Source: a virus. From it: a stretch of 21,023 nucleotides of DNA. Positions 1 through 11,664 of this stretch are shown piece after piece. The notes beneath the pieces were generated by a model that did not search any database, was not told where the DNA came from, and was given only the letters and a program-made list of their open reading frames with translations. The translations under genes were made by a program, and so were the position numbers. Numbering within the stretch: the first letter of the stretch is position 1; every line of letters starts with the position of its first letter. The stretch spans positions 1-21,023 of the IMG/VR virus record IMGVR_UViG_3300025141_011228, one strand, 5' to 3'.

Positions 1-628
1 AATCGATCTGATGAAAATTGTAGACTGTGATACAGTTGTCTACATGATCATGAACTCTATCTCCATCGCGGTCCGTTACACACTGCATATTCTTGGTGTA
101 GTCGCGCCTATGCAATAGGGGGCATTCGTCAGTCACATCGAGGACTCCGTCGTTGTCATCGTCCGAATCACACACGTCTCCCCACCCATCACCATCAGTA
201 TCTACCTGGCTAGGGTTGGCAACATCTGAACAGTTATCGTCAGAATTGTTCACCGAATCTCCATCCAGATCCTCGTCACAAGAATCTCCTAGGCCGTCGG
301 CGTCTCTATCAAATTGATTTGGGTTCCAACTGGTACGGCAAGTGTCGCATGCGTCGCCCCAACCATCCGAGTCTACATCCATCTGATCCGGGTTGGCGGC
401 CCATGGGCAGTTATCGAAATCATCCTCCATCCCGTCCTCATCAAAGTCGTCAGCAAACTGCTGAGTGTCGCCCTGATCAGTATTAGCGATTAGAACGCTT
501 CCTCCGCCTCCTCCACCCCCTCCGGATTCCTCCGGGGTTCCACACAGGCCTCCGGCGCACTCGCCCTCCTCGTCGGCGTGAGCGACGTTTACGAACGCCA
601 AACTAATCATAATCATATTCTTTATCAC
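1..628 (-). CDS. Secreted thrombospondin type 3 repeat protein (3' end cut by window)
   Basis: The frame stays open from a GTG at 628 to the window edge (209 codons), so the C-terminus is missing. An AAGGA ribosome site (636-640) precedes the GTG; an in-frame GTG at 634 is too close to it. Residues 1-18 form a short signal peptide: Lys3, a hydrophobic core and an Ala-His-Ala end, predicting cleavage before Asp19. A Cys-containing stretch and an eight-Gly linker follow. From about residue 60 there are repeats of the type DNCP...NPDQ.D.D.DG.GD.CD, the thrombospondin type 3 Ca2+-binding pattern, with at least three DNC units and many DxDxDG loops. The mature protein is very acidic. Seen: export signal and repeats. 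Known: such repeats bind Ca2+ and form stiff rods in extracellular proteins. Inferred: it acts in the periplasm or outside the infected cell, or on the virion. It has its own promoter. Confidence 0.85.
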   Translation of the reverse strand, partial: MIKNMIMISLAFVNVAHADEEGECAGGLCGTPEESGGGGGGGGSVLIANTDQGDTQQFADDFDEDGMEDDFDNCPWAANPDQMDVDSDGWGDACDTCRTSWNPNQFDRDADGLGDSCDEDLDGDSVNNSDDNCSDVANPSQVDTDGDGWGDVCDSDDDNDGVLDVTDECPLLHRRDYTKNMQCVTDRDGDRVHDHVDNCITVYNFHQID

Positions 629-2903: not shown

Positions 2904-4025
2904 TTACTTTGCCGTTTTCTCAACAACCTCATCGCCGTCAATATCATAAAAATCGTCAGCCTTGCCAGTGCGATCTTCAAACTTGCGTACGATCTCCTGA
3001 TCCATAATCTCTATGACGCGATCTCGAAAACGTCCGACCTGCATCTTTTCCATCCAGGCCGCCTTTTGGAACTTTACGTTCTCGCCCTCTTCGAAGTTGA
3101 GAGTGAACCAGGCGCCTGCATTAGTGAGATTCTCAGACGTTTTAATTGCATCGAACCAACTTTCTTCGTCACAAATTTTAATCTCATCGGATCCCCACAT
3201 GATCTTGAACGTGCATTCACGACCCTGCGTTCCGAATCTGGACTTTTCGATCTTAGCCTTAACCTCTGAACCTACTCTAAACCCATTCTCGTCTGTTAGA
3301 AAACTGGCTTTTGATTTACGCCCAGTGAGCCAAATTCTCAGCGAATATGCATAGCTCAAAGCCTTCCCACCCGGAGTAAAGTAGGGAGTCGTAAGTGCTT
3401 CACCCATATTCCTCGTGATGTTAGTCTTAAGTTGGTTAAGAATTAATAGAGAGGATCTGTTGTTCGCAATAGGTTGCACTAGTTTGGAAAGACCTTTCGA
3501 GAGAATCCTGGGCTTTACTGCCATCGAAGACAGCGGGTTATAATCTCCCTCAAGGTCCGTTCTCGAAGGGGTAAACGCAAGGCTGTCCCAGATGAACAGA
3601 AACTGATTTCCAGTTCCAAGGAGCTCCTCAATGTATTCCAAAACAGATTCTACATCAACTGCCTGAACATAGAGTACCTCGTCAACGTTGCACCCAGCCC
3701 TCTCAAGGAAAGTCGAATCCAGAGCGGACTCGGAATCAAAATAGACGACACTGAACCCTTTTCTCTGTGCGTTCGCTGCGATCTGGGCTGCCATGTAAGA
3801 CTTCCCCGTGCTCTCAAGGCCGGCGACCTCCGAGATCTTTCCGATCGGTATACCGGATACCTTACCTCTGCAGATAATGGAATCCAACCAGCGAGAGCCG
3901 GTCGGGATCCAATCATCAACATCTGTCGGGTTCTTCTCATTTAAATTATATGCAATAGTTGAGCCGGCCTTCTTGTTCAGAAGCTTCCGCATGTCCGCGA
4001 TATTCACTTTTCCTGCCTTAGTCAT
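2904..4025 (-). CDS. uvsX: RecA/UvsX-type recombinase
   Basis: 373 residues, close to T4 UvsX (about 390) and E. coli RecA (about 350). The Walker A motif GLESTGKS lies at 69-76. The strand YFDSES at 95-100 follows, with Walker B FLFIWDSLA ending near 150 (Asp147). The Q-loop-like LLILNQLK and the FTPGGKAL segment of the DNA-binding core come after. The C-terminus is acidic (RTGKADDFYDIDGDEV), as in RecA. It would form ATP-dependent filaments on ssDNA and catalyse strand exchange for recombination-dependent replication and repair, working with the ssDNA-binding protein encoded upstream. The ATG follows the previous stop by 5 bases with no clear ribosome site, suggesting coupled translation. 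Family certain; UvsX rather than bacterial RecA is inferred from phage context. Confidence 0.9.
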   Translation of the reverse strand: MTKAGKVNIADMRKLLNKKAGSTIAYNLNEKNPTDVDDWIPTGSRWLDSIICRGKVSGIPIGKISEVAGLESTGKSYMAAQIAANAQRKGFSVVYFDSESALDSTFLERAGCNVDEVLYVQAVDVESVLEYIEELLGTGNQFLFIWDSLAFTPSRTDLEGDYNPLSSMAVKPRILSKGLSKLVQPIANNRSSLLILNQLKTNITRNMGEALTTPYFTPGGKALSYAYSLRIWLTGRKSKASFLTDENGFRVGSEVKAKIEKSRFGTQGRECTFKIMWGSDEIKICDEESWFDAIKTSENLTNAGAWFTLNFEEGENVKFQKAAWMEKMQVGRFRDRVIEIMDQEIVRKFEDRTGKADDFYDIDGDEVVEKTAK

Positions 4026-4585: not shown

Positions 4586-5353
4586 CTAGTTGTTCAACAG
4601 CTCATTGAAAGCGGCGTCAACCGACGTCGTCTTGGCGCCGGAGGCCTGGGGGCCGCTGCTGTACTGCGTCGTCTCCTTAGAGGAGGTCTCAGCATCTTCG
4701 TCCGAAGACAAGAACTCATCCAAAATGGTGCCAACCTCTTCCACCGACTTTCTCTCGAAGAGGGTGGTCACATCCGGGATGTTCTCCAGAAAGTCAGTCG
4801 TCTTCTCCGGAGTACTGCTCAAGGCGGAGTTATGACGACGGGGCTGAATCTTCGTGTGAGGAAACGCAGCGCCCGGGGGACGTCCGTAATTGATGGTCAA
4901 GTCCGTACCGTTGTCAACATCAGTGATGTCTCCATAGTCAGGGTTCAAGACCAAGCTCAACAGAGTCTCATAGGCAGTCTTTCCGTAACCCCAGATACGC
5001 ACCCCTTGGTCCTCTTCGTCGCGGACCAGAACAGGCGAGAAGAATCGCTGACGCGCAGTCAGAGACTTAGCCATCTTAATGCTATCCTCGGCTCCGTCAT
5101 CGAACAACTGTGAGACAAACTCGCACACCTTGCAAGTATCTCCGAAGTTACGCTTCGGGCATAGAAACCCGGATGTCTTACCCACGTTGTAGTGGAAAAA
5201 GAATTCCTTGAAGGGGTCGCCGTCCGATGTCGGAACAATGCGAATTGTAGTCTCGGACCCGTCGTCCGGACGCCAAAATTGTGAAGAGTTCCCGTTGCCG
5301 CGGCTCTTCAGGGCGGTGTACTTCGCCCTAATCTTTGTCATGTCAATGCCCAT
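4586..5353 (-). CDS. gp32-type single-stranded DNA-binding protein
   Basis: 255 residues, a little shorter than T4 gp32 (301). A basic N-terminus (KIRAKYTALKSR) precedes an OB-fold core with IRIVPTSDGDPF, then a zinc site His54-x10-Cys65-x8-Cys74-x2-Cys77, nearly the spacing of the His-Cys3 zinc ribbon of T4 gp32. A linker at about 215-240 is acidic and Ser/Thr-rich (SSDEDAETSSKE), and a short conserved-looking tail follows (VDAAFNELLNN), where gp32-like proteins recruit partners. It would coat ssDNA at forks and recombination intermediates and load with the UvsX-type protein. The ATG at 5353 follows AAGGAG by 11 bases. A strong promoter directly upstream suits a protein needed in large amounts. 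Confidence 0.85.
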   Translation of the reverse strand: MGIDMTKIRAKYTALKSRGNGNSSQFWRPDDGSETTIRIVPTSDGDPFKEFFFHYNVGKTSGFLCPKRNFGDTCKVCEFVSQLFDDGAEDSIKMAKSLTARQRFFSPVLVRDEEDQGVRIWGYGKTAYETLLSLVLNPDYGDITDVDNGTDLTINYGRPPGAAFPHTKIQPRRHNSALSSTPEKTTDFLENIPDVTTLFERKSVEEVGTILDEFLSSDEDAETSSKETTQYSSGPQASGAKTTSVDAAFNELLNN

Positions 5354-5416: not shown

Positions 5417-5445
5417 AATATAACACGCGTGGTGCCCTTTGTCAA
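5417..5445 (-). promoter_or_regulatory. Consensus promoter for the ssDNA-binding protein
   Basis: Perfect TTGACA (5440-5445), a 17-base spacer and TATATT (5417-5422, 5 of 6). The -35 hexamer includes the TGA stop of the tubulin-like gene. Transcription would start near 5410, leaving a leader of about 57 bases before the ATG at 5353 with an AAGGAG site. Confidence 0.75.
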
Positions 5446-6290
5446 GTAGTTTTTTCTTCTAACTGAACTTTAGAGGTGTACACCAGGCAATATGCGTAGT
5501 CCTCCTTATACTCAGTTGAATAAATGCCATAAGAAACTTTCACTTCCGGCTTTCGCTTATTCTTGACCTGTTTCTTTATCTCTTTCGCCAACATTCCGTC
5601 AACCTCAAGCCTTTTCCTATTTATAGCATAATGATACATCTTTTCGCGGACTAAGTCAAGAGGATAAAGTAACTTTTCTTCTCCAGTGCTTACGTTAACG
5701 ATCCCGATCGTGTAGATTCTACATGCCGGCAGGGGCGTCAGGCGGGCTCCCACTAGTGGTGGGGTGTTCTGGAACACATTCACCATATGTTTGGTGTTGG
5801 CTATTAGTCCGTTAAGCTTTTCGTAGTACCCTATCACGGGCACGTTTCCTATAACATCTTCGGCGCAAGTGTTGTCAATCAAACATATATTTTCAAAAAG
5901 ACCAGATCGAGCATATTCTTGTAATATACCTCGAAGAGCGCGCTCCTTCCTCAGTGAATATTTCCCAAACAACTCGGTGTCTGGCTTGATATATATGACG
6001 TGTAACTTACAATCTTTGATGTGTTCCAATATCCAAAGAGACGCACCGGGGGTGTTCCCGCCGCCGCCGACTATGAACACCGCTTCACCAGAGACAGTGC
6101 TAAGAAATTCTGTCAGATCCTGAGTGTTTTTTTCGTATTCCTCAAAGGTATCCTGTTCCTCTAATCTGAAGTAGTTTTCGTCATCTAAGAACGGTAAGGC
6201 GCTATCAATTTTATAAATATTGTACTGAGGATAAACCTCGAACTTTGTAGCCAAGGCGCAGCCCGCAGAACCAAGACCGATGATATTCAC
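5442..6290 (-). CDS. Divergent tubulin/FtsZ-superfamily protein (putative)
   Basis: 282 residues from a GTG at 6290 overlapping the previous stop (GTGA). Residues 3-9 give a first strand and glycine loop (IIGLGSAG), as at the tubulin/FtsZ N-terminus. Residues 72-88 (VFIVGGGGNTPGASLWI) sit where the GGGTGxG phosphate loop belongs, with the following helix. Residues 97-105 (HVIYIKPDT) and 135-141 (ICLIDNT) match the next two core strands and the nucleotide-contacting Asn. Residues 155-174 resemble core helix H7. A smaller beta-rich C-terminal domain follows. The G-loop is not canonical, and I see no clear T7-loop catalytic acidic residues. Seen: motif order. Inferred: a phage cytoskeletal or scaffold GTPase. 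An NAD(P)-type Rossmann protein is the main alternative. Confidence 0.6.
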   Translation of the reverse strand: MNIIGLGSAGCALATKFEVYPQYNIYKIDSALPFLDDENYFRLEEQDTFEEYEKNTQDLTEFLSTVSGEAVFIVGGGGNTPGASLWILEHIKDCKLHVIYIKPDTELFGKYSLRKERALRGILQEYARSGLFENICLIDNTCAEDVIGNVPVIGYYEKLNGLIANTKHMVNVFQNTPPLVGARLTPLPACRIYTIGIVNVSTGEEKLLYPLDLVREKMYHYAINRKRLEVDGMLAKEIKKQVKNKRKPEVKVSYGIYSTEYKEDYAYCLVYTSKVQLEEKTT

Positions 6291-6598
6291 TTATCCGAGA
6301 CCTCTCCCAGTATTATTTGTTCTGCAAAGGCGCCTTTAGCAGTTTCCTTAGCTTGGCGTGCAGTCTCGACTTCATATAAATCCAGACCATAGAAATCTGT
6401 TATTGCGGCAAGAACTTCCATGATATCCGCCATCTCTTCGAGGCACGGCTTCTCGTGGAACTCCTGTACTTCCTCATCCAGCTTCTTCCACAACTTCTGC
6501 CCGTATTCATCACTGTTGGCGATGTGATGGGTGTACTTCTTCCCAAGACTATCCAGAATCTCAGGGATCCTGTCTCTAACCAACTTGTCATATATCAT
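6287..6598 (-). CDS. MazG-like / phosphoribosyl-ATP pyrophosphohydrolase-like NTPase
   Basis: 103 residues. It begins with YDKLVRDRIPEIL, a hallmark of small MazG-like proteins. The metal-binding motifs of all-alpha NTP pyrophosphohydrolases follow: Glu42-Glu43-x-x-Glu46 and Glu55-x-x-Asp58 (EEMADIMEVL). It would hydrolyse (d)NTPs to monophosphates and PPi, either cleaning the nucleotide pool or, as proposed for other phage MazG proteins, tuning host nucleotide signals. The substrate is unknown. Its ATG lies inside the last 11 bases of the polymerase gene, with GGAG 12 bases upstream, and its stop overlaps the GTG of the tubulin-like gene. Confidence 0.8.
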   Translation of the reverse strand: MIYDKLVRDRIPEILDSLGKKYTHHIANSDEYGQKLWKKLDEEVQEFHEKPCLEEMADIMEVLAAITDFYGLDLYEVETARQAKETAKGAFAEQIILGEVSDK

Positions 6599-7775
6599 GT
6601 TTTTTCATTTCTCCAAAGTTTCTTCCGATCGATATATTCGCCCCGTATATGCCCAGGTCCGTGTCCCGAAAAACCTTAACCATTTCAGAAATCATCTCCT
6701 TATCTCCAAGGGATAAGTCTATCACAAGGCTGTCGTGCATTGGAAAAGCAACGAAAGATGTCTTGCCCTCCAACATACTGTCAAGCTTGATCGCTTGTCT
6801 CAACAATAGATCACTTGTTGTGCTTTGTATAGTATAATTTAAAGCATGTCGCCCATCACAAGGGATGGTCCTATCAAAAAAAGTTGTGACCTGCTCGCCA
6901 GTGAAATATTTTCTTACCACTGACTCACGATCGTAAGTTTGTTCAAGAAGATAATCTTTCGCCTCTGGGTTATAGAGCCATGCGAACACTCTCTTCTTCG
7001 CCTCATCCCTTGTCCCCATACCTCGGAAAACATTCTTGATATTCCACTCATGTAGGTCTTCCTGCGGCTGTTCAAGGCCCGAAAGGGCCAGCAATGTCCG
7101 AAGTTCCGCTGCATTGAAGTCCAATTCGACAAAGCAATCGTTTTTTGGCTTCAATATGGATCTGTACTCTCTGTCCATCGTTAATATGGGAAAACTTCTC
7201 TTTTTAGAGCTCAATCTTCCCGTTTTCGTCCCAAAAAGGTCTAAATCTATGAAATTATTGGATTTTTGCACTTTTTTGATGAATTGGCGAACTTTAAACT
7301 CGTGATTCCTGCTTTTCAAGGCATTTAGGTCAATATTTAGCTCATTTTGTTTAATTTCGGATAAGATACCGCTCACTTGCCTTAAAAAATCATAATTTTT
7401 TGGTTTTTCATAATTTTCCAACACATATTCTGTAATTTTGTTCTTGATCCCGCAGAAATCAACCAAAAAGCGCTGCGGGACAAGGTCAAAGAAGCAGTTT
7501 TCCTGCAAAGAGACCTTTGATTCTCGAAAAGAAGTAAGAAATGCCTTTAGTTTTGCCGACCTCTCCTCCCATTCGTCAGAAAGATGTTCCGGACAGGCCT
7601 CACCCAGCTCTTTTCCTCCGCAATATAACTTAGCGTACTCAATCTCTATGCCTTTTAAAAAGGCAGAGTAATCCCATGTGCGTGATAAACCGTCAGGTAT
7701 GGAGTTGTAGGACAACTCACCGTCAGCAAAGACTCCGATGCATTGTCCCTTGTCGTCAAGTGCTTGGAAGATCAT
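6588..7775 (-). CDS. Minimal family A DNA polymerase (no visible proofreading domain)
   Basis: 395 residues from the ATG at 7775, which overlaps the previous stop by one base (TGATG); an in-frame TTG lies one codon upstream. The palm and fingers motifs are present. The GTKTGRLSS segment lies at 182-190 and motif A Asp219-Phe-Asn-Ala-Ala-Glu224-Leu-Arg at 219-226. Motif B is Arg256-x3-Lys260-x3-Phe264-x3-Tyr268, with Asn in place of the usual following Gly. The NYTIQSTTSD helix lies at 313-322 and motif C His347-Asp348-Ser349. The Pol I Phe762 position is Phe264. It is much shorter than T7 gp5 (704) or Klenow (about 605), and no 3'-5' exonuclease motifs are seen. The second acid of motif C (Glu in Pol I) is Ser. 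It is the only replicative polymerase candidate in the window. Confidence 0.85.
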   Translation of the reverse strand: MIFQALDDKGQCIGVFADGELSYNSIPDGLSRTWDYSAFLKGIEIEYAKLYCGGKELGEACPEHLSDEWEERSAKLKAFLTSFRESKVSLQENCFFDLVPQRFLVDFCGIKNKITEYVLENYEKPKNYDFLRQVSGILSEIKQNELNIDLNALKSRNHEFKVRQFIKKVQKSNNFIDLDLFGTKTGRLSSKKRSFPILTMDREYRSILKPKNDCFVELDFNAAELRTLLALSGLEQPQEDLHEWNIKNVFRGMGTRDEAKKRVFAWLYNPEAKDYLLEQTYDRESVVRKYFTGEQVTTFFDRTIPCDGRHALNYTIQSTTSDLLLRQAIKLDSMLEGKTSFVAFPMHDSLVIDLSLGDKEMISEMVKVFRDTDLGIYGANISIGRNFGEMKKHDI

Positions 7776-9022
7776 CAAATATTCATTAAAGTAACATCGC
7801 TTGTCGACGATACTGCATGCAGTATATCATACTCTTCTTGACTTGTAATCCCTTTTATCCACCATCTCTCAGGATTTAAATCCAGGATTCTTTCATTAAG
7901 TGAGTGCAGGATCTTCCCATGACCTAGGGCTTTGTGTAATCCTGAGATTTGATTCAAGTGCACTTTTAGTTTTGCCGGGTGGAGGACTACACCAGTCTCC
8001 CTCAGTCTTATTCTGAAGTAAAGCTTTAACCAATATTGCTCTCCATACAACCCTTCGTACTCCGACTCAGTTATAGTCTTTCTGGGGGATCTGTGAATAA
8101 ACGGGTTCTTACCACATTTTGATTCTTTCAATTCTTCAACAACCGGGGCGGAGTCGACGTACTCTTCATAAGAGGAGAACAAGAAAGATTTTAATAAATC
8201 AATGTCCTCTTCGTAAGTTTTAGTATAGAGAGTCTCGAATATATCAGAAGCCGAGCCAGGCGCATATGTCGTGTTATAATTCTTTGAATAAAATTGCATT
8301 CTTGGGGAGGCTAACTCTGCGGTCAGGCGCCATGGAGCGTTTTTGTCAACTACAAATCCAAACTTAGCGGCTGTATTGCGAAATACTTCAAAGTTTACAT
8401 CTTCAATATATGACTTTTGTTTCCTCAAATCTGTTGCGTGGTCTTCTCCCCCTAGCTCAATCGTAAGTCCGCTGACCATAGGGGAGCAGAACTTGGAGAT
8501 TACAAACCCAGATTTAGTTATTGGCAATGCCGGCAGTATTTTATTAAAAAATTGGATGTATCTTTTCGAGAAGTCCTCAAATGTCCTGACACTTTGGTGG
8601 GTGCGATCTTCATTTAAAGAATTTAAAAAGAGATCGTTTATCGCATCCAAATAGGAAAAATATAAATTAGTCGCATTCGACCAGGCTGCGGTGGGATTGA
8701 GTGCTGAATACACACCGCCTCGTGAAATTGCACTCCTCAAGGCGCCATGTTCAAATTTACTTTTCAATTCTTCGAAGGCATCGACAACAAAGTTTACACC
8801 CAAGTACGTTCCTGAATTAGTACGAATTTGTTTTAAAGAATCCGTTCTAGGCACGACAACCCTTTCTTCACGATCTATTCTACCATAAAAACTCTTATCA
8901 TACCAGTAATCTATAAACCTTGGTCCAAACTCTGGATATGCATTTTCCTTATAAAATCTTCTAAAAATATATGTGTCAAGAGCAGTCTGCTTGTTTGTAG
9001 CGGTGAAGTCTGGTAGGGGCAT
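7775..9022 (-). CDS. Unknown 415-residue protein, possibly virion-associated
   Basis: 415 residues from an ATG with GAGGAG 7 bases upstream, 11 bases after the hub gene stop. It is rich in aromatic residues, Arg/Lys and Asn, without signal peptide, membrane segment or Cys cluster. A segment near 240 reads FGFVVDKNAPWRLTAELASP. The C-terminal third is helical with many basic residues. I recognise no enzymatic motif. Placement at the end of the baseplate genes and the large size argue for a structural or assembly protein; direct abutment with the polymerase gene (stop and start share one base) leaves a replication role open. Its bases are more A+T-rich than the hub gene next to it. Confidence 0.7.
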   Translation of the reverse strand: MPLPDFTATNKQTALDTYIFRRFYKENAYPEFGPRFIDYWYDKSFYGRIDREERVVVPRTDSLKQIRTNSGTYLGVNFVVDAFEELKSKFEHGALRSAISRGGVYSALNPTAAWSNATNLYFSYLDAINDLFLNSLNEDRTHQSVRTFEDFSKRYIQFFNKILPALPITKSGFVISKFCSPMVSGLTIELGGEDHATDLRKQKSYIEDVNFEVFRNTAAKFGFVVDKNAPWRLTAELASPRMQFYSKNYNTTYAPGSASDIFETLYTKTYEEDIDLLKSFLFSSYEEYVDSAPVVEELKESKCGKNPFIHRSPRKTITESEYEGLYGEQYWLKLYFRIRLRETGVVLHPAKLKVHLNQISGLHKALGHGKILHSLNERILDLNPERWWIKGITSQEEYDILHAVSSTSDVTLMNI

Positions 9023-9033
9023 TCAGTGTCTCC

Positions 9034-11664
9034 TCAACGTGCCGGCCTTGCGCGGGGCTTCTTCTTTCGGTCGCCGCGGCCGGTGACTTTGCCGAAGGAT
9101 GTCCAGGTGCATTTAAGTTCTGTTTTATACCCCCTAGAACTGTAGGTGGAGGTGACCTCGATCACGTCGTAATATCCTCCCAAACCTAACTCCTTCGCCA
9201 TTTCGCCCCTGCTGCCGGCGGCTCCTAGGCCTGTCAAAGTTGGGTTTATATAAATCTTTTGGCCTGGTGTGAAAAACGGGTTCCCAACCAAATCAAGCGT
9301 CGTATCATATTTATGCCTCAGTTGACCCCTGTCGGTTTCGGCAGATGTAAACCTGGCCTCTGTGAGGCCCTGCACATCGGTTTTCGAAAAGTTAACAGAT
9401 TTAAGGATGCCAGCGTCAGCGCCCAAGACAAAATGGTACACCCCGTTCTGGAAATCGGCTTCCTCATTAGAAGGGTTTAAATCATCCGGAGATTCCGCTG
9501 CACCGTATATCAGTAGACAGTGTTGATATCCGCTGAACAGCCGGCGGGGCGGCGCTTGTGTCGGAATAAAGCTTGAAAACACATCCGCTTTTAAATCTAC
9601 CCCCAGTTCGACGTCGCCCTTCTTGATTCGAACTGCGTGGCCGCCAGACTTCTTAGGCACCAAGAGCGACTGAAGGCCTACAAGGTTTGTCTTCTTGCCA
9701 ACGCCTGCAAAACATAATTCACCTAGGGCGGGCAAGATTAATTCAATCACAATATCTCTTATAAAGGCTCTCATCGGATATCGATCTTTGAGTGGTCTTA
9801 CCACATTCCTGTTAAACCATATTTCAAACAACTTAGTAGATATCGGAACGTCAGCCAAGTTAACCACCACGCGGTGTCCCTTTTGGTCATAGTAAGTGAA
9901 AGAGCCGAGAATCATTTGAATTTCCGGGATCATCACCTGACTGTTTCTTAATTCTTGGAATATACTGGAGATTTCCTCTATGAGATCTCCAAAATAAAAA
10001 AAGTTTATGCGATGTTTGCTTGGGTCGGCCTTGGGGACGTCCTGGCCTTCAACCAAATTCCATCTAGGTCCAGAGGTAGCGCCGTCGGCGCCCCTATTCA
10101 AATCCGCCGTCCTTAGCTCGTCAGCGCCTGGTGTCCGTACGCCGCCGGTGGGAGAAGGGCCGGGCTGTGTACTCACAAGGGGGGGGCTGTTGTCTCTTCC
10201 CCTCGCTTCTGCACTATACAACATGGTTGTTACTTCGGCGGTGGATAAATCGTAGTGGTATATCTTTTTCTTGGTGAAAAGGGCTGTCAGGATCCTGGAG
10301 TATTTTTTGGCCCGGGCTTTCGCTTTTACGGTGGCCATTTGTTTGGTCAGAGCCTTAGACTCTGCTCTTAACTGCTCTATCCCCCGCTCTGTTGCGGCTC
10401 TGCTGAGCCTGGTCGTGCGTCCGCCGGGCGTTGCTGGGGCTGTTGGGGGGGCGTCCTCGGCAGCCACAATTCTTTCCAGGCCGTGCTCCTGCTCACTGAG
10501 GTTGTGTGTATTCGTGGAGAGTTGGGCTGCCATCACCTCTAGACTTCTTTCGTTTTCTCGATCTTCCTTCAAATAAAGCACGTCCAAAAGAGGATTGTTC
10601 ATAATGCTTTGAAGGGCACCTTGATATTCAATAGTCAGCTCGATAGTCCCGTCTTGCCTGAAATCTATCGAGTGATCTGTCATGTCTAGAAAAATCGTTT
10701 GGCTGCATCTTTCTAAAGATTTTTTCAACATTGTAGTGTTGGGGCCCAAATCCATGGCAGCAGGTGGAGTGGCCCAACCGACGACTGCCATCAATTTGAA
10801 GTACTTCTTGTTCAGAGTCCGGGGGGTTCCCGGGATAACGCGGCCATCGCGATATCTCTCATATGTATATTTTGTCCTTCTAGTGATCAGGTGTAGGTAG
10901 TTTATGTGATCGGGTGCATCCTCGTCCACAAGCATCCCTATGTCCTGGAAAGTCAATGTTAGCGTGCATGCAACCAGCGCTCCTTCGGCAGGATTTCTAC
11001 CCTGCGTTTTAACTTTAAACGCCTTGATCCCTACTCCATCGCCCCTACCGTACTTGCTAGTCGTCATCTTTTCTAGAGATTCTTTACTTGTCGAGTCATT
11101 AAATATAAGTTCTGTAATCTTTTTTTCTTGATCGAGTTCGTCATAGAATACTTTGAATAAACGAATCTTTGGGACAAGGGCGGCGATCTCATAAGGTCTA
11201 ATACTTCTTATAAAGTAGGATGCATGCTGCCGTGAGTTAAACTTACTTAATACAGTGGACGGATCGTCTGTGCCGAGGCGCGTTATGAGTTTGTGCTTGT
11301 CTTTTTGAGCGGCGGCGTAGGCGGCGTATTCAGGTAGGTGATCTGAAAGGAAACATTGTTCGCGAAACTCTAGTGTGTCGCTTATGTGCTCTGGCGGTGT
11401 ATTTGTTGGTGCGGCGGTGTTGGCCCCTAGGGCGCGTTGTTGTGATTGGGCTGTGGCTGCAGCGAGTCGGCGGGTGGCGACGGGGTCTTGAGCCTGCAAT
11501 TGCTGTTGGTGCCCAGCAATGCGCTCCTCTCTTTCAATTATCTCTATGTATTCCTCCAGGCGTCTGGCTCTGGTGCCGCCTTGGGAGTCTGCGCGTGCGC
11601 GACGGCGCGCCTCCGTAATGATGCGTTCTCGCTTCTGCTCTTCGGACTCGGAAGGGGGAGCCAT
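9034..11664 (-). CDS. Large baseplate hub-like virion protein
   Basis: 876 residues. The N-terminal 90 residues are charged and helical (EEQKRERIITEARRRARA), then a Gln/Ala-rich stretch. A globular region at about 95-380 includes PKIRLFKVFYDE and SIDFRQDGTIELTIEYQG. A second Arg/Lys/Ala helix lies near 430-460, a Pro/Gly/Thr-rich linker at about 495-545, and a C-terminal beta-rich part follows. That part holds GNPFFTPGQKIYINP, then GLGGYYDVIEVTSTYSSRGYKTELKCTW. The last pattern resembles the hub family of T4 gp27/P2 gpD, where such strands contact the tube and spike. Position after tape measure, tube-like and LysM genes is the usual hub place. The tail is basic (RGDRKKKPRARPAR). Hub assignment is inferred from order and a weak C-terminal likeness. 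Confidence 0.6.
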   Translation of the reverse strand: MAPPSESEEQKRERIITEARRRARADSQGGTRARRLEEYIEIIEREERIAGHQQQLQAQDPVATRRLAAATAQSQQRALGANTAAPTNTPPEHISDTLEFREQCFLSDHLPEYAAYAAAQKDKHKLITRLGTDDPSTVLSKFNSRQHASYFIRSIRPYEIAALVPKIRLFKVFYDELDQEKKITELIFNDSTSKESLEKMTTSKYGRGDGVGIKAFKVKTQGRNPAEGALVACTLTLTFQDIGMLVDEDAPDHINYLHLITRRTKYTYERYRDGRVIPGTPRTLNKKYFKLMAVVGWATPPAAMDLGPNTTMLKKSLERCSQTIFLDMTDHSIDFRQDGTIELTIEYQGALQSIMNNPLLDVLYLKEDRENERSLEVMAAQLSTNTHNLSEQEHGLERIVAAEDAPPTAPATPGGRTTRLSRAATERGIEQLRAESKALTKQMATVKAKARAKKYSRILTALFTKKKIYHYDLSTAEVTTMLYSAEARGRDNSPPLVSTQPGPSPTGGVRTPGADELRTADLNRGADGATSGPRWNLVEGQDVPKADPSKHRINFFYFGDLIEEISSIFQELRNSQVMIPEIQMILGSFTYYDQKGHRVVVNLADVPISTKLFEIWFNRNVVRPLKDRYPMRAFIRDIVIELILPALGELCFAGVGKKTNLVGLQSLLVPKKSGGHAVRIKKGDVELGVDLKADVFSSFIPTQAPPRRLFSGYQHCLLIYGAAESPDDLNPSNEEADFQNGVYHFVLGADAGILKSVNFSKTDVQGLTEARFTSAETDRGQLRHKYDTTLDLVGNPFFTPGQKIYINPTLTGLGAAGSRGEMAKELGLGGYYDVIEVTSTYSSRGYKTELKCTWTSFGKVTGRGDRKKKPRARPAR

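Follow-up and report, generated by a model that had tools for sequence, protein, structure and literature searches.

Phage-encoded tubulin-like proteins are on record for nucleus-forming jumbo phages, where they are called PhuZ, and for plasmid-like prophages (TubZ). Two distinct FtsZ/tubulin representatives were noted among jumbo phages in a 2021 survey (PMC7824862). The canonical protofilament contact is formed by loop T7, the base of helix H8 and strand S9 (PMC3678025), and T7 donates catalytic residues to the next subunit (PMC5414002). Here we describe TUB, a protein encoded in a 21,023-nucleotide stretch of viral DNA (the window; IMG/VR record IMGVR_UViG_3300025141_011228). By its predicted fold TUB is a member of the tubulin/FtsZ superfamily, and it represents another phage tubulin family, invisible to the sequence libraries that we used. 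We propose, with a probability of roughly 0.5 for the statement as a whole, that TUB is a guanine-nucleotide-binding, non-canonical tubulin that is made with the phage polymerase and would act as a scaffold at the replication centre. No TUB-like family is described in the literature that we searched, which did not extend to preprints or subscription journals.

Among known systems, the best structural match of TUB is archaeal CetZ (3zid, 4b45, 4b46), which has the same fold end to end (Z 22–25, 2.8–3.3 Å over 253–261 residues) at 13–17% identity; TUB is shorter, lacks T7/H8 and helix H9, and has a degenerate T4 loop. TubZ, of plasmid and phage partition systems (2xka, 4ei7), also shares the fold (Z 22–23) and is likewise encoded by mobile elements, but TUB has neither a catalytic T7 nor a long C-terminal tail, and its gene sits between those for a family A DNA polymerase (PolA) and a gp32-type single-strand DNA-binding protein. 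The constant neighbours of TUB are PolA and gp32, with no recognisable TubR of the TubZRC type adjacent, as far as can be judged with small flanking genes and repeats left out of the analysis. PhuZ (phiKZ TubZ) is a phage-encoded tubulin fold of similar size that retains the aspartate of T7 and ends in an acidic C-terminal tail (PMC3678025); TUB has no such tail and no detectable sequence similarity to phiKZ PhuZ (hhalign E about 0.1), and its contigs, of which the largest examined is about 203 kb, carry a T4-type gp32/UvsX/tail module. FtsZ resembles TUB in fold, with T4, T6 and H7 aligned in HMM–HMM comparison, whereas TUB lacks GGGTG[ST]G, an NxDxxD T7, H8 and a conserved C-terminal peptide. 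Measured by the features of the known GTPase families, TUB has the T6 and H7 asparagines; it fails on T4 and on T7/H8, and we therefore do not file it as FtsZ, TubZ, CetZ or PhuZ.

Gene, library searches and predicted fold

The original prediction, which placed the TUB reading frame and its GGGGNTPG motif where Table 1 has them, was exact on both. The start of TUB overlaps by 4 nt the stop of an upstream MazG-like open reading frame. The Pfam match of the latter is below cut-off and its assignment to MazG is weak; a KLVRDRIPEI and EExxE...ExxD pattern is nonetheless visible. IMG/VR holds 31 close relatives of TUB, and a profile search of the same database returned at least 570; relatives are 36–48% identical over the full length. 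Twenty-five columns are invariant in an alignment of 23 sequences, and 13 among 79 non-redundant ones. Given these many relatives and invariant columns, we consider TUB a real gene under strong constraint. It was present as a single copy in each of the 14 large contigs first examined.

Single-member searches of Pfam, PHROGs and NCBIfam gave no significant match, nor was a significant relative found among PDB sequences or cultured phages (INPHARED, two queries), and no close relative is encoded on GTDB genome contigs. No TUB member exceeded the cut-off of Pfam PF00091 (best member E 0.018–0.033), a family that was above cut-off in 0 of 14 TUB genomes versus 13 of 14 control genomes. The BFVD viral protein models included only distant tubulin-fold proteins, at 10–15% identity to TUB. 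In HMM–HMM comparison the match to FtsZ was weak (probability 14–74%, E 0.002 to 2.8e-5) but collinear: the T4–T6–H7 region aligned at E 2.8e-5 with 23 rows and at 0.002 with 79 rows, T6 falling on the IPN of FtsZ. Among the controls, PolA, gp32, UvsX and reversed FtsZ gave E about 0.1, and the reversed alignment of a second phage tubulin (see below) gave E 0.02. Because this sequence-level support is weak, the case for homology rests mainly on predicted structure.

AlphaFold2 models of the window TUB (23 rows; pLDDT 91.5, pTM 0.90) and of a different member (79 rows; pLDDT 94.3, pTM 0.92) both have strands S1–S10 and helix H7 in tubulin order. Foldseek against the PDB returned only FtsZ, TubZ or tubulin among its top 50 matches (best, FtsZ, E 2.8e-12). 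With VIA-align, CetZ ranked first both for the window TUB (3zid; Z 24.2, 3.1 Å over 260 residues) and for the second model (Z 25.0, 2.8 Å over 253 residues), followed by TubZ, FtsZ and tubulin at Z 21–23. The match to these four spans the whole length of TUB, with H7 and the C-terminal domain included. The first 50 structural rows did not list PhuZ, an absence that is uninformative about its relation to TUB. On these two independent predictions we are close to certain that TUB has the tubulin/FtsZ fold. The fold proposed in the original prediction is thus supported, and the elements named there (the IIGLGSAG, HVIYIKPDT and ICLIDN strands, an H7 helix and a beta-rich C-terminal domain) can all be found in the predicted structure. 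The proposal would have been refuted by a plain Rossmann fold that matched no tubulin, and the PDB matches gave no such result. What could suggest a plain Rossmann NAD(P)/ATP-binding protein that is no tubulin are Pfam matches below threshold: 13 of the 79 members hit TrkA_N (best E 0.005), and single members hit other NAD-binding families. The tubulin-superfamily match runs over the whole length (Z 21–25, all listed rows being of that superfamily) and refutes such a protein at the level of structure prediction; we rejected a plain NAD-binding identity on structure and give it next to no credence.

Table 1 Features of TUB, its neighbours and the second phage tubulin (positions in the window unless stated)
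Feature	Residues	Position	Strand	Remarks
TUB, divergent tubulin/FtsZ-superfamily protein (by predicted fold)		5442..6290	(-)	282 aa, GTG start
MazG-like nucleotide pyrophosphohydrolase ORF		6287..6598	(-)	103 aa; weak Pfam match PRA-PH, E 0.056
PolA, family A DNA polymerase		6588..7778	(-)	PF00476 E 2.8e-12; constant upstream partner of TUB
gp32-type single-strand DNA-binding protein		4586..5353	(-)	PF08804 E 1.3e-12; phrog_1192 3.1e-28
UvsX/RecA recombinase		2904..4025	(-)	PF00154 E 4.2e-35; PHROG 1.4e-50; next in conserved module
TUB T1 loop, GLGSAGCAL	5-13	6252..6278	(-)	family GLGxAGCNI; near-invariant in 79 sequences
TUB degenerate T4 phosphate loop, GGGGNTPG	75-82	6045..6068	(-)	family GxGx[IV]SG
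TUB T6, ICLIDN	135-140	5871..5888	(-)	N140 invariant, 79/79
TUB central helix H7	155-174	5769..5828	(-)	N160, H168 invariant
TUB segment replacing T7 and helix H8	175-191	5718..5768	(-)	coil, no conserved acid
TUB N-terminal elements	S1 2-6, H1 7-19, S2 24-29, S3 40-42			predicted structure
TUB elements	S4 69-75, H4 80-90, S5 95-102, H5 110-128			predicted structure
TUB elements	S6 134-139, H6 140-147, H7 155-174, S7 192-198			predicted structure
TUB C-terminal elements	S8 214-224, H10 234-243, S9 251-259, S10 265-272			predicted structure
Second tubulin, CetZ/FtsZ-like		L110:1027-2121	(-)	364 aa; contig IMGVR_UViG_3300025131_009739

Kept and lost elements of the predicted nucleotide site

The TUB model has the full set of ten tubulin-fold strands; the names of secondary-structure elements in Table 1 follow their order and are our own assignment. 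The T2 aspartate is kept in 77 of the 79 sequences, and the H7 asparagine, N160, in every one. N140 of T6 is presumably the base-binding asparagine of FtsZ and tubulin. In T4, compared with the canonical GGGTG[ST]G, the threonine position is variable and the glycine that follows is replaced by isoleucine or valine (72/79). The glycine-rich loop of T3 is missing, with a conserved ExYE (E50, Y52, E53) in its place. Residues 175–191 form no helix in either AlphaFold2 model (pLDDT 85–96 in those blocks), and across the T7 region of the 79 sequences no column has an acid conserved above 58%. Helix H9 is missing and replaced by a beta hairpin, and the chain ends within about 14 residues past the last strand. 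An altered G-loop and a missing T7 acid had been pointed out for the window TUB; both hold for the whole family, from which T7/H8 and the canonical T4 have been lost. Invariants specific to the family are LQxYARS, which closes H5, and H168 within H7; conservation also extends to the C-terminal domain (RISTIG, YSTxYE and the terminal glutamine).

The loop residues of TUB that would contact the nucleotide are assigned only by analogy to FtsZ and tubulin. By this analogy TUB would retain the guanine-binding half of the tubulin site, namely T1, the T2 aspartate and the T6 and H7 asparagines. With this half kept, T4 degraded, T3 replaced and T7/H8 gone, we predict nucleotide binding without the usual intersubunit hydrolysis; from the loss of T7/H8, neither standard hydrolysis nor a standard longitudinal contact is expected. 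Nucleotide binding, the lack of hydrolysis, assembly and a scaffold role are all inferences: absence of canonical hydrolysis is likely, some ordered assembly falls slightly short of an even chance, and with its degenerate T4 TUB might bind no nucleotide whatever.

Assemblies of another kind are not excluded, because Staphylococcus aureus FtsZ with a replaced T7 still shows straight-filament packing in crystals (PMC5414002). The same packing, the tubulin fold and the acidic ExYE near the expected T3 site could be taken to favour a cytomotive filament of the PhuZ/TubZ type, treadmilling and centring phage DNA by means of a non-standard catalytic residue (for example, E50 or E53). We consider this quite improbable for a protein with a degenerate T4, without T7, H8 or a conserved acid in that region, and without a C-terminal tail like that of PhuZ or TubZ. 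Instead of a treadmilling PhuZ-type spindle we prefer a nucleotide-stabilised scaffold, which may self-assemble or dock via its top face at the replication centre. TUB lacks T7/H8, the element that elsewhere couples filament contact to hydrolysis; were it to bind nucleotide or assemble, it would show what the tubulin fold is capable of without cross-subunit catalysis. The protein is short and its models are confident, making it ready for expression.

Position within the replication module

The recurring gene order in the 109 loci found via TUB was hub–p415–PolA–(MazG)–TUB–gp32–UvsX–exonuclease, gp32 being the constant downstream partner of TUB by synteny. TUB also lay between PolA and gp32 in all 123 loci that hold both and that were fetched independently of it, through PolA or gp32; seven fetched loci without TUB all end at the start of gp32. 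These loci are the nearest relatives, taken as the best 80 of each scan and in part overlapping, and the claim is therefore confined to the clade. There, TUB has a fixed place between PolA and gp32, and it is universal in the sampled part of this large uncultivated T4-like clade. The stop of PolA and the start of TUB are at most 30 nt apart, and often overlap, in 136 of 217 loci, and about 280–360 nt apart in some 50 others, a spacing that fits one MazG-sized gene. Across the clade, identity is about 60% for gp32 and about 66% for UvsX but only about 43% for TUB, which therefore evolves faster than either and yet is never missing.

The replication-centre association put forward in the original prediction is supported by this strict synteny, without experimental demonstration. 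Coupling to MazG applies to the window, with its 4-nt overlap, and is not general, since no more than about a fifth of the 109 loci have a recognisable MazG. Similarly, the module was called T4-type, which is apt for gp32, UvsX, the tail sheath and the tail tube, but not for the polymerase, which belongs to family A and is not T4 gp43. At 396 aa the window PolA is short, and its match lies mainly in the polymerase domain. Positions 9034–11664, upstream of the 415-aa protein, encode a large hub-like protein of 876 aa that is rich in Ala/Thr linkers, its function guessed from position alone.

A conserved place among replication genes is no proof of a role in replication. An association of TUB with replication nevertheless seems probable to us on synteny alone, and TUB would then be part of the DNA-replication module of these phages, made together with their DNA polymerase. 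As a scaffold it could keep polymerase and single-strand DNA-binding protein at the replication centre. The same neighbourhood can be read in another way: TUB frequently overlaps or nearly abuts PolA, and MazG-like and dCMP-deaminase genes are close by, as might be expected of a monomeric, non-polymerising pseudo-GTPase that senses GTP/GDP (or dGTP) or serves as an accessory subunit of the polymerase, without any cytoskeletal role. The missing H9 and T7/H8 bottom contact, together with the degenerate T4 and T3, would suit such a protein. However, the tubulin fold nearly always serves assembly, and the conserved motifs of TUB extend into its C-terminal domain; we regard a pseudo-GTPase as unlikely, though the strongest of the alternatives. 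If the preferred scaffold binds nucleotide or assembles, it would provide a direct link between a tubulin relative and phage DNA replication. We advance only tentatively, at somewhat less than even odds, the broader view that TUB, without its catalytic loop, became a core part of the replication machinery, and would be the first tubulin relative placed at a replisome and not in a cytomotive filament.

Clade boundary and a second phage tubulin

Judged by tail sheath and UvsX, the closest relative in culture is Microcystis phage Mel-JY01, which has the same module without TUB; its slot (PolA ... gp32-UvsX-exonuclease) was read and contains no TUB relative. For RM378 and Flavobacterium phage immuto, near relatives by tail sheath, no tubulin is named in the record stretches inspected, on annotation only. 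Large phage contigs of a sister lineage, some as long as 281 kb, have the order hub–PolA–x–gp32–UvsX, and their slot is filled by genes other than TUB; for two of four such phages this was, by eye, a DnaQ-like exonuclease. Given its absence from the slot in Mel-JY01 and the sister lineage, TUB was either gained at the base of the clade or lost outside it.

A second tubulin occurs in some TUB phages and in many contigs of the sister lineage; it belongs to the superfamily of TUB but has sequence matches to CetZ and FtsZ and adjoins a sigma-like gene at a different locus. At least 107 IMG/VR stretches carry it, among them contigs of up to 281 kb (relatives L293–L372), and it was not found in cultured phages by tblastn. 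Its T4 (GGGTGS) and T7 (D..DL) show no variation among 59 sequences, so the loss of both from TUB is not an artefact of phage divergence. Both tubulins were present in 6 of 20 contigs tested (G005, G015, G016, G017, G023 and G028). Most TUB contigs tested lack the second tubulin, which argues that TUB is independent of it; in sister phages with the second tubulin only, the PolA–gp32 slot is occupied by other genes.

The presence of a canonical tubulin in some TUB phages bears on a further possibility, that TUB is a decoy or cap whose top face, lacking a working bottom face, terminates the filaments either of host FtsZ, which would block division, or of a phage tubulin. A missing T7/H8 longitudinal face beside a partly kept nucleotide face is compatible with such a cap. 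But TUB is locked into the replication module and not into a host-takeover region, most TUB genomes tested have no second tubulin to cap, and its identity to FtsZ is only about 13%. We find a cap doubtful, less plausible than a pseudo-GTPase and marginally more so than a cytomotive filament; the scaffold remains our preferred reading.

One relative of the window phage (G006; 172,361 bp, L284–L292) encodes, as judged by eye, adenylosuccinate synthetase, an IMP dehydrogenase-like enzyme, glutamine synthetase, ThyX, dUTPase, GroEL, a DnaE-like polymerase and a phosphate-permease-like protein, and ARAGORN identified one tmRNA and seven tRNAs in it. In L284–L292 and L385–L388, many unrelated small proteins share a leader, MKITKxQLKQIIKEEL or MKLLLENWRxYL, which is possibly a targeting sequence or a cleaved propeptide.
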